From Nitrospirota bacterium (GTDB taxonomy: Bacteria; Nitrospirota; Nitrospiria; Nitrospirales; Nitrospiraceae): a stretch of 38,469 nucleotides of DNA. A model generated the notes under the pieces. The model did no database searches. It saw only the letters and a program-made list of their open reading frames with translations, and was not told the origin of the DNA. The DNA is taken from assembly GCA_016200355.1 (NCBI GenBank), contig JACQEY010000187.1, forward strand, positions 1 to 38,469, in the 5' to 3' direction. This document shows positions 20,777 to 37,357 of the stretch, one piece after another (position 1 is the first letter of the stretch; each line of letters opens with the position of its first letter). The translations under genes were made by a program, and so were the position numbers.

Positions 20777-22456
20777 ATGAGCATCATTAGACAGATAAGG
20801 TGGGCCGGGTTACCCGCTTTCTTCAGTGCAGCCGTGATGGCAGTGGGGATGTCATTCGTAACGATCCCAGCGCAAGCTGCGTTTGAAGTGCCGGAAGGCG
20901 AAAGAATCACCCACCTCGCAGTCGTTCCGCGCGCGATTCCGCAGAAGGAAGAGTATGAACTCTATGATCCGAAGATCGGAAGGAATTTCGATCTCCAGAA
21001 GTTCTGGATACGAGCCGATCTCCGTGTCCGACCGATCATGCGGAACGGTGTCTGTTTCGGCAGCACTATCATCGGGAACGGAGCTTGTAACGACCCTAAC
21101 CCCGGCACCACCCCGAATGGTACTCCTGGCAAACAAAACGACTTCTATTCCCAACAGTTGACACGGTTGGGTATTGGGTACGACCTCTCGCCAGACCTGA
21201 ATTTCTACATGGAACTCCAAGATTCGAGGACCTGGGGCGGAAACGGGGCCAATGGTAGAGAGGGCATCCAAGACGATGCGAGGAACCATAACGGCTGTGC
21301 GACACAGAATGGCGGGGGTAACTGCAACACATTGGGGGTCCGTGCTGCCTACATGTTGGTTCGGAACTTCGCCGGGTTTCAAGGCCTGAGCGTGAAGGCC
21401 GGTCGGCAATATGTGGTGTTAGGCAACCAGTCTCTGTTCGGCGCCTTCGACTGGTCCAATACAGGAATTTCCCATGACGGTGTGATGTTGCAATACAGCA
21501 CCAAGGCCTGGGATACCTACGCCGGTTGGTTTCGGACCTCTGAATCCGATCTCGGACAAGCATTGTCGGTCGGCGCTCGCGACCCGAACATCGGCCCAAG
21601 CACCGTCAATAACGGCAATGCAAACCAAGATTCCGACGTTTATATTTTCTACAACCAGATCAAGTCGGTGCCGGGATTCATCATCGAGCCCTACTACTTC
21701 CTCTACTCCAACCGGTACAATTCTCTGGACAACCGGGGCCAGGGTCTCGGGACGCCGAGGCATTCGAACCAGACCCGTCATAACGTCGGAGGCCGGATCG
21801 AGATGCGCAAGGGCAACTTCGACGCGGTAAGCGAAGCGCTCTACCAGTTCGGCCAAATGGGCGACACCGGTGGGCCCAATGGCGCAGGTTATGGAAACCA
21901 AAAGTACCTCCACATCAGTGCCTGGGCGACCAGAAACTGGATCGGATATACGCATTATGAGTGGGCCTGGAAGCCGCGACTCGCTTTCAACTTCGATTAT
22001 GCCTCGGGCGATGGCCGGGCAAATTGCACGATCGGCGGTGGCACAGATTGTAAAACTGCCAATACGTTTGAGAACATGTACCCGACCAACCACCTTCACA
22101 TGGGCTATATGGATGTCCAAGGCTGGAAGAACATGATGATGCCTTCGGTGAATTTTCAATTCCGTCCAAGCAAGGATGACCATATTGAAATTTGGTACAC
22201 CAACTTCAACTTGGCCAATACGAAGGACAACTGGTATCGTGCCACGCAGGGCGTCTATGTTTTTTCAAAGAGGAACAACACCAAGCGACACGTCGGAGAC
22301 GAAATAGACTTTGCTTGGACGCACATGTTTATGGACGGCAAGTTGTCCCTGCAGGCGGTTTATGGCCACATGTTCGCCGGCGGATATATCGCGGAGAACC
22401 TTGGTACCAGCACCGATCAAGACTGGGCGTATCTCCAGCTCTGGATGAATTTCTAG
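20777..22456 (+). CDS. Outer-membrane porin, alginate-export (AlgE)-like
   Basis: The 559-residue protein has a signal peptide ending near PAQA and a body of alternating beta strands ending in WAYLQLWMNF; a C-terminal aromatic is typical of beta-barrel proteins recognised by BamA. The sequence VKAGRQYVVLGNQSLFG is the GRQ element of the alginate-export porin family, and WRYD-type strands follow. In Nitrospira-like genomes this family is common and the true substrate is generally unknown. TAGGAAAG precedes ATG 20777. The stop codon directly abuts repeat copy 1. No exopolysaccharide genes are adjacent, so alginate transport should not be assumed. Confidence 0.82.
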   Translation: MSIIRQIRWAGLPAFFSAAVMAVGMSFVTIPAQAAFEVPEGERITHLAVVPRAIPQKEEYELYDPKIGRNFDLQKFWIRADLRVRPIMRNGVCFGSTIIGNGACNDPNPGTTPNGTPGKQNDFYSQQLTRLGIGYDLSPDLNFYMELQDSRTWGGNGANGREGIQDDARNHNGCATQNGGGNCNTLGVRAAYMLVRNFAGFQGLSVKAGRQYVVLGNQSLFGAFDWSNTGISHDGVMLQYSTKAWDTYAGWFRTSESDLGQALSVGARDPNIGPSTVNNGNANQDSDVYIFYNQIKSVPGFIIEPYYFLYSNRYNSLDNRGQGLGTPRHSNQTRHNVGGRIEMRKGNFDAVSEALYQFGQMGDTGGPNGAGYGNQKYLHISAWATRNWIGYTHYEWAWKPRLAFNFDYASGDGRANCTIGGGTDCKTANTFENMYPTNHLHMGYMDVQGWKNMMMPSVNFQFRPSKDDHIEIWYTNFNLANTKDNWYRATQGVYVFSKRNNTKRHVGDEIDFAWTHMFMDGKLSLQAVYGHMFAGGYIAENLGTSTDQDWAYLQLWMNF

Positions 22457-22579
22457 CAGGATGCTGAAAAAGTCCGCCAGCGGCGTTCTCGCATCGCTCA
22501 GAGGCTCAACGTACCGAAGCGTACGCCTCGCCTCTTCGCTCGCTGCGGCCTTGCTGGACGGCCTTTTTGAGCATCCTGC
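22456..22579 (-). repeat. Structured inverted-repeat element, copy 1
   Basis: The 124 bp piece is bounded by GCAGGATGCTGAAAAAGTCC (left) and, inverted, GCAGGATGCTCAAAAAGGCC (right); the arms continue to the CCAGC boxes. A central hairpin CGTAC-CGAAGC-GTACG lies at about 22510-22525. It begins on the last base of the porin stop codon. Copies 2 (27979) and 3 (37189) lie on the opposite strand. Confidence 0.88.
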
Positions 22580-27408: not shown

Positions 27409-27891
27409 ATGGCACAAGGGCGCCGCTATTGGCTGATGAAATCGGAACCACGTGTATTTTCGATCGACGATCTCGCGCAATCTCCCAAGCAGACGACCTG
27501 TTGGGATGGGGTGCGGAACTATCAGGCGCGCAACTTTATGCGCGCGATGGCCGTCGGCGACCATGTGCTTTTTTACCATAGCAATGCCGAGCCGCCGGCT
27601 GTGGTGGGGATTGCGGAAGTTGTGCGGACAGCCTATCCCGATCAGACGCAGTTCGACAAGACGTCCCACCACTATGATCCAGCCAGTGTTCCCTCTGCTC
27701 CGCGGTGGGATATGGTGAACATCCGGTATCGTCAGACATTCAAGACCGGTCTGCCGCTTGATCGACTAAGGCAGGAACCAAAACTGAAGGGCATGGTCTT
27801 GTTGCAAAAAGGCTCTCGCCTCTCGGTCCAGCCGGTGACGGAAGCTGAGTGGGCTGTGATATTGAAACTTGCCGGAGCAAAGATCAGCTAG
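27409..27891 (+). CDS. EVE-domain protein
   Basis: The 160-residue protein is almost entirely an EVE domain: YWLMKSEPRVFSIDDL at the start, TCWDGVRNYQARNFMRAM, then GDHVLFYHSN, and LLQKGSRLSVQPVTEAEW at the end. EVE belongs to the PUA-like fold and homologues such as THYN1 bind modified DNA bases. A role in sensing modified nucleic acids is possible, but no restriction or modification gene is nearby. A purine-rich AGGAAGAGGTG precedes ATG 27409. Confidence 0.93.
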   Translation: MAQGRRYWLMKSEPRVFSIDDLAQSPKQTTCWDGVRNYQARNFMRAMAVGDHVLFYHSNAEPPAVVGIAEVVRTAYPDQTQFDKTSHHYDPASVPSAPRWDMVNIRYRQTFKTGLPLDRLRQEPKLKGMVLLQKGSRLSVQPVTEAEWAVILKLAGAKIS

Positions 27892-27978
27892 CGGAGCTGC
27901 TACCGGGCTGTAGAAAAATTATGTTGGGCTGGTGAAAATTCAATGGCCAGCATGTCTGGGGCAAAGGGACATGGTCCT

Positions 27979-28105
27979 GCAGGATGCTCAAAAAGTTCGT
28001 CCAGCAAGGCCGCAGCCGATGAAAGCACCGGAGGCGTAGCCCTGGGCTACGTTGAGGATGCTTTCGAGGGGAGAACGAAGCTGGAGGACTTTTTCAGCAT
28101 CCGAT
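27979..28105 (+). repeat. Structured inverted-repeat element, copy 2
   Basis: It begins GCAGGATGCTCAAAAAG and ends CTTTTTCAGCATCC, the same arms as copy 1. The centre CGTAGCCC-T-GGGCTACG (about 28034-28050) replaces CGTAC...GTACG of copy 1 but stays fully paired; GAAAGCA/TGCTTTC form an outer stem. The right end touches the stop codon of the minus-strand metalloprotease gene. Confidence 0.88.
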
Positions 28106-28353
28106 TAGGTTTTGGCTTTGCCGTTATCAAGATGTCGGTGCTGCCAGTCGAGCCAGGCATGGCCAAGTTCGTGGGCGAGAATGTAGCGCCGTCTGGTCAC
28201 AGGCAAGCGCTTGCGAAGATAGATGGTCTTCGTGGCGTCGTCCCAGATTCCGTCGGCATTCGGATCCCGACGGTCCATGTCGGTATCGGAAAGTTGACGG
28301 ATGGAGATCCGATAGCCGAACGGAAGCACGACTCGAGAGGGCATTCGCAACAT
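28105..28353 (-). CDS. Minimal HExxH metalloprotease-like protein
   Basis: This 82-residue protein has the zinc-protease motif AHELGHAWLDW near residues 59-69, following a beta segment KTIYLRKRL. The layout resembles the ImmA/IrrE (DUF955-like) or SprT-like minimal protease fold, but it is shorter than usual and the third metal ligand is not certain (a later His or Asp in HRHLD is possible). AGGAG lies upstream of the ATG on the minus strand, so it is probably a real gene rather than a relic. No helix-turn-helix partner gene is adjacent. Its stop codon abuts repeat copy 2. Confidence 0.75.
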   Translation of the reverse strand: MLRMPSRVVLPFGYRISIRQLSDTDMDRRDPNADGIWDDATKTIYLRKRLPVTRRRYILAHELGHAWLDWQHRHLDNGKAKT

Positions 28354-37188: not shown

Positions 37189-37357
37189 GCGGTATGCTCA
37201 AAAAGGCCGTCCAGCAAGACCGCAGCGAGTGAAGAGGTGAGGCGTACGCTTCGGTACATTGAGCCTCTGAACGATGCGAGAACGAAGTTTGGGAAAAGGT
37301 GCGTCTTGGCGCACCAGGGTTGGGCGGGTGAGAAGGGCGACTTTTTCAGCGCCCTGC
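37189..37357 (+). repeat. Structured inverted-repeat element, copy 3, with an extra insertion
   Basis: It has the same arms and centre as copy 1 (GGCGTACGCTTCGGTAC). About 45 bases (roughly 37290-37335) are added in the right half, including GGTGCG-TCTTGG-CGCACC, a perfect 6 bp hairpin. It ends six bases before the clpP ribosome site, so it fills most of the tig-clpP gap. Confidence 0.88.

Follow-up and report, generated by a model that had tools for sequence, protein, structure and literature searches.

The window, a 38,469-nt stretch of Nitrospira DNA, carries copies of a hairpin element that we interpret, with a probability of roughly 0.85, as a ~200-bp non-autonomous MITE that inserts at TA, rebuilds stop codons with its terminal G, is purged from elsewhere, retains its hairpin, and is mobilised in trans. 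The family is new, and its kind, the TA-flanked MITEs, is already known. In this mechanism, the element enters at TA, mostly within CTAG, and duplicates this TA, as shown by the duplications and empty sites described below. After landing in TAG or TAA, its initial G restores a TA+G stop. By site counts, CTAG is scarce in genes and common at stops, and insertions into genes and promoters would be purged. Surviving copies would concentrate in stops because CTAG is common there and the other insertions are lost. The tail would then decay, with the hairpin arms kept and co-varying, and the hairpin at the head of the 3′ UTR may serve a purpose, or at least be maintained, through mRNA 3′-end protection or as a weak terminator. 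The mobiliser is probably an IS630/Tc1-like or IS5/IS427-like enzyme acting in trans.

Copies in the window and the element family

Copy 1 is represented by its hairpin (GCAGGATGCTGAAAAAGTCC...GGCCTTTTTGAGCATCCTGC; 22456..22579, plus strand), and the ~75-bp tail is unrecognisable here. It begins inside the stop codon of a porin-like gene (Pfam Alginate_exp; 20777..22456, plus strand), whose TAG occupies 22454..22456 on the same strand. Copy 2 is a full element on the minus strand (27903..28105), with the hairpin at 27979-28105 and the tail extending down to 27903. It begins inside the stop codon of a metalloprotease-like gene (Peptidase_M78/IrrE-like; 28105..28353, minus strand, start approximate), whose TAA lies at 28105..28107 on the minus strand. 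The first-pass annotation had placed the onset of copy 1 on the last base of the porin TAG and that of copy 2 at the metalloprotease TAA, with the same arm directly after both stops. These placements were confirmed: base 1 of copy 1 is the G at 22456, position 1 of copy 2 is the last A of the TAA, at 28105, and the exact 16-mer GGATGCTGAAAAAGTC is present at both junctions. With up to 2 mismatches, GGATGCTGAAAAAGTC has 5 matches in the window, compared to 0.04 expected. In the relatives with the consensus end (G006, G044, G047, G017, G043, and G011), position 1 of copy 2 is G and the stop is TAG. The predicted folds have an MFE of -61.1 kcal/mol (z -5.3) for copy 1 and -58.0 kcal/mol (z -6.8) for copy 2. 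The tail of copy 2 ends ~11 bp from the stop of an EVE-domain gene (27409..27891, plus strand), which is convergent to the metalloprotease-like gene. Copy 3 (37189..37357, minus strand) is an interior-rearranged variant in the tig-clpP gap; it has no stop junction and lies 21 bp upstream of the called clpP start. For this copy, comparison of filled and empty sites in relatives shows a TA duplication.

The full element of ~200 bp consists of a 125-bp hairpin with the outer sequences given above and a ~75-bp tail that ends in TTTTTCCGCAGCCTGC, an inverted copy of the left end. The outer ends therefore form imperfect terminal inverted repeats (GCAGGMTGCKGAAAAA), with GCAGGATGCTGAAAAAG on the left and GCAGGCTGCGGAAAAAC as the reverse complement of the right end. 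The tail was recognisable in 33 of 96 copies; these measure ~200 bp, most of them 197-205 bp, and no transposase gene was found inside them. A match of ~206 bp to the query recurs across relatives. At one locus of the host genome (C192:63535 and 63656), two element copies adjoin immediately.

Copies were collected with a covariance model built from 30 copies. It gave at least 133 matches in the host Nitrospira genome (G000), where up to 150 candidates were scored, and matches in all 41 searched genomes of the order, densely in the 24 congeners; Nitrospira genomes carry upwards of a hundred copies each. The exact 21-mer TAGCAGGATGCTGAAAAAGTC was nearly confined to contigs labelled Nitrospira or Nitrospirae. 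Exact matches were also seen in MAG contigs labelled Myxococcales, Deltaproteobacteria, and Acidobacteria, which reflect either horizontal transfer or binning errors. A plasmid collection searched for the element gave no match, and an Rfam search of the window returned a single tRNA and nothing at the element copies. No account of the family in Nitrospira came up in a literature search, subscription papers being outside its reach; stop codons and Nitrospira both go unmentioned in a 2024 review of prokaryotic MITEs.

Insertion at TA and placement within stop codons

The position of the element relative to genes was determined in 401 kb around 96 copies of the host genome, with gene ends resting on a home-made dicodon-model caller. 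In 45 of the 96 copies, the distance from the left end to a same-strand stop is exactly -1; these junctions comprise 39 TAG, 5 TAA, and 1 TGA. G011, a second species, shows the same junction, with the third base of a same-strand stop as the first base of the left arm, in 28 of 75 copies. With even use of noncoding CTAG sites in either orientation, only ~8% of copies would be expected to have this junction (binomial p ~4e-24 for 45/96). The bias is already present in the best-preserved copies, 19 of the top 32 being at -1. About half of the copies lie away from an exact stop junction. Random cuts of the element into coding regions were considered and rejected, as the -12 frame should then equal -1, whereas 2 versus 45 and 2 versus 28 copies were found.

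Both element ends read TA|G outward, and either end is thus able to join a stop. The right end exactly abuts an opposite-strand stop in 9 of 96 copies of the host genome and in 2 of 75 copies of the second species. Between tandem genes, the left-arm-first orientation is favoured 71:32 (p = 0.00015); the ratio is 22:13 among tail-bearing copies, which is not significant, and 49:19 among tail-less copies. Gaps with an element are 57 tandem, 25 convergent, and 8 divergent, compared to 211, 31, and 48 among element-free gaps, so that convergent and tandem gaps are favoured and divergent gaps avoided. The earlier suggestion that the element targets the 3′ ends of genes holds in a sharper form than claimed, as insertion within the stop codon itself. 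The same-arm orientation proposed with it stands as a strong bias (45 versus 9, 28 versus 2, and the tandem ratio above), but not as a rule.

Orthologous filled and empty sites show that the element enters at TA, for the most part in a CTAG context, giving the arrangement C-TA-[GCAGG...CCTGC]-TA-G. At C117:6639, the empty site reads ATCCG-CTAG-CCG, with seven relatives having ATCC-GCTAG or close variants, and the filled site in G000 reads ATCCG-CTA[GCAGG...CAGCCTGC]TAG-CCG, i.e., ATCCGCTA[element]TAGCCG. At C207:13207, the empty site is GAAGT-CTAG-GGGG (two relatives read GAAGTCTAGGGGG), and the filled site in G000 is GAAGT-CTA[GCAGG...CAGCCTAC]TAA-GGGG, i.e., GAAGTCTA[element]TAAGGGGG. In the empty state, the TAG at both sites is the in-frame stop that belongs to the gene itself. 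The TA duplication is also seen upstream of clpP, where more than half of the relatives lack the element and others carry it; the filled site of G013 has TA on both sides. At C117:4185, the gene ends at the same stop in relatives that lack the element, but the right-hand junction has eroded in G000. Whenever the target is a TAG or TAA stop, the initial G of the element directly follows the retained TA and completes a functional stop codon (TA+G), so that the protein is unchanged. Two stop sites demonstrate this cleanly, and two others lend partial support.

A 2-bp TA duplication fits 13 and a 4-bp duplication 4 of the 27 informative copies (TA at both ends, CTAG not on both sides), and an IS5-like duplication of CTAG/YTAR was rejected on these counts. 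In G000, the copy at C207:11526 has no clean TA junction, the empty site in relatives lacks TA, and the terminal codons of the adjacent gene seem to have been replaced by the insertion. Only some members of the genus carry the element in the tig-clpP gap, a short distance ahead of the clpP start, and several of its interiors are rearranged there.

How far the preference for stops follows from the available targets was assessed by site counts. Stops account for 16% of the noncoding CTAG sites outside elements. By region type, with two genomes pooled, 28% of CTAG sites in tandem and 42% in convergent regions are at stops, and exact stop insertions were observed at 50% and 63%, respectively. At YTAR sites, the observed stop shares were 0.50 (tandem) and 0.63 (convergent) against backgrounds of 0.27 and 0.39. 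Most of the stop preference is accounted for by target availability combined with the avoidance of promoters and coding DNA. The leftover 2.4-2.7-fold excess over the within-region background may reflect post-insertion selection, an imperfect background, or a real preference for stops. In the last case, insertion itself would be directed at stops beyond CTAG, e.g., by features of DNA or transcription around the ends of genes. This excess and the bias of the best-preserved copies speak for such targeting; nevertheless, we consider it very unlikely, as fast purging of other insertions would yield the same pattern. Moreover, with CTAG as background, the excess is significant in tandem gaps only, and in convergent gaps, where this background is small, it is not (p = 0.17).

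Retention and possible function of the hairpin

The pairing of the outer 10-bp stem was examined in 155 copies in register by counting double-changed, still-pairing cells against 1000 shuffles. There were 92 such cells, whereas the shuffles averaged 16 and reached at most 32; genome-wide counts of this type are, however, tilted to paired copies because the covariance model rewards pairing. Orthologous sites defined by synteny are free of this bias. At the metalloprotease stop, the element is present in nearly all of ten relatives, with TAG, TAA, or TGA as the stop, and paired changes occurred on both arms (A6 to C6 and A3 to G3). At C117:11467, it is present in all six relatives, five of them with well-paired arms, and both G000 and G016 carry A6 to G6 on both arms; the hairpin length at this site ranges from 68 to 343 nt. 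In G000 and the six relatives, the loop was swapped for unrelated sequences of varied length, and the arms were kept. As paired arm changes persist while hairpin length varies, the arms are what is kept. The hairpin also outlives the tail. Judged from sequence comparison, selection for a 3′-UTR hairpin structure is plausible.

The first-pass annotation had proposed that the element serves as a transcript end or stability structure. The long retention and the compensatory stem changes are compatible with this use, but a strong obligatory terminator fits poorly, because two recent copies sit between tandem genes whose spacing in relatives is only ~6 and ~14 nt. An inner stem (CCAGC...GCTGGACGGCC) is followed by UUUUU; however, these U residues are base-paired to a run of A, the loop is long, and a terminator scan over the element copies flagged none. 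At the porin site, element-free relatives have TAA (G001, G003, G007, G013, and G020) and filled relatives mostly TAG. A canonical terminator (GCCCCGC..GCGGGG..TTTTT) directly follows the porin stop in the element-free G001, G003, G007, and G020 and is absent from G000 and other filled relatives. The comparison is not clean, as the porin locus of G005 and G013 has neither the element nor the canonical terminator.

These observations bear on two further explanations. In one, the element is a selected, vertically inherited 3′-end module, an intrinsic terminator or RNA stabiliser, that owes its place to function and not to insertion chemistry. Such a module would account for the nearly complete occupancy of the metalloprotease site with compensatory arm changes, for hairpins that persist as tails decay, for the tandem orientation bias, and for the exchange with a canonical terminator at the porin stop. 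The A5/U5 tracts beside the G+C stem in each arm also give it the shape of a bidirectional terminator. We nonetheless regard this explanation as doubtful: clean lineage-specific insertions with TA duplication argue for arrival by transposition, a strong terminator between such closely spaced tandem genes should be polar, the terminator scan was silent, and copies are also found upstream of starts, e.g., of clpP. In the other, the stem covariation is mutational and arises by quasipalindrome correction during replication, not by selection. Long imperfect palindromes readily undergo template switching, and the loops are often rearranged. However, the conserved G.G mismatch at position 11 of the arm has gone uncorrected in 147 of the 155 copies, and we consider a mutational origin unlikely. 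Retention of the hairpin of a transposed MITE remains our preferred reading.

A stronger version would be a stop-specialised element that carries the last base of the stop, exceeds the CTAG prediction, and installs a selected 3′-UTR hairpin. We rate it as rather improbable; if true, hundreds of genes across the genus would share a transposed 3′-end module. The MITE reading itself offers a simple, checkable rule for how a transposable element can become so numerous in a compact bacterial genome: with CTAG as the context of its TA target and G as its terminal base, it can land safely in stop codons without altering proteins. Many genes of Nitrospira, an environmentally important nitrifier, are thereby left with a structured 3′ UTR, which makes the element relevant to annotation and transcript studies of this genus. 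The filled and empty orthologous pairs are suited to measuring the effect of the hairpin on termination and mRNA decay.

Candidate mobilising enzymes and comparison with known systems

A search of G000 with the DDE_3 profile gave no match. Among 30 DDE_3 and 18 DUF4096 loci of the genus, none carries the terminal repeats of the element, and both the IS630-like and the DUF4096 IS5-like elements of the genus were rejected as partner IS on this difference. Assembled genomes of such kind often lose multi-copy transposases, and the absence of a transposase from G000 is thus weak evidence. An autonomous partner may exist among families beyond DDE_3 and DUF4096.

Mobilisation of a REP/RAYT-type palindrome by a Y1 (TnpA_REP) transposase is extremely improbable. 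In favour of this origin, the element is palindromic, extragenic, and of high copy number, and it has a TAG tetranucleotide-like motif at one foot. However, single-strand Y1 transposition makes no TA duplication, whereas insertion of the element duplicates TA. A Y1_Tnp (PF01797) profile search of G000 gave no match, with control genomes positive; this result and the TA duplications led us to reject a RAYT/REP origin. The element is also longer (125-200 bp) than REP sequences, which measure 20-40 bp (PMC3733652). What it shares with REP/BIME systems is the nature of an extragenic palindrome and a possible role as RNA stabiliser.

With IS630/Tc1-mariner elements, the Nitrospira element shares the TA target, the 2-bp TA duplication, and the preference for CTAG; for IS630, the preference for TA in CTAG is given in the title of Tenzen and Ohtsubo 1991, as cited in PMC2170065. 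It differs in having no transposase gene and in terminal repeats that are unlike those of the IS630-like elements of the genus. The IS5-like DUF4096 (IS427-type) elements of relatives follow the end rule of the MITE, with flanks of the form C-TA|G...C|TA-G, but have other terminal repeats, such as GGGCCTGTTAACAC, with no clear match to GCAGGMTGCKGAAAAA.

By mechanism, compared by description, the closest kind is that of the TA-flanked bacterial MITEs ERIC/IRU, RUP (mobilised by IS630-Spn1), and Correia/NEMIS (PMC2229807). Like these, the Nitrospira element is small, has no coding gene found in it, and combines terminal inverted repeats with TA ends and a TA duplication; it likewise forms a long RNA hairpin and is mainly intergenic at high copy number. 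It differs in its host group and in that no partner IS was identified for it. Its stop-completing terminal G and frequent exact placement at stops are undescribed for ERIC, RUP, and Correia in the literature examined, and no description of stop-codon insertion regenerated by a terminal G was found in the accessible literature.

By position, the element, with its frequent placement at stop codons, recalls YPAL of Yersinia. De Gregorio et al. reportedly found in 2006 that YPAL lies closely downstream of stops and that YPAL-carrying transcripts reach higher levels. YPAL/RU-2 is a hairpin element of ~168 bp (PMC2229807, PMC2759123) that has no TA termini, carries internal inverted repeats, and is flanked by duplications of 3-26 bp (PMC2229807), whereas the Nitrospira element duplicates TA and is placed inside the stop codon.
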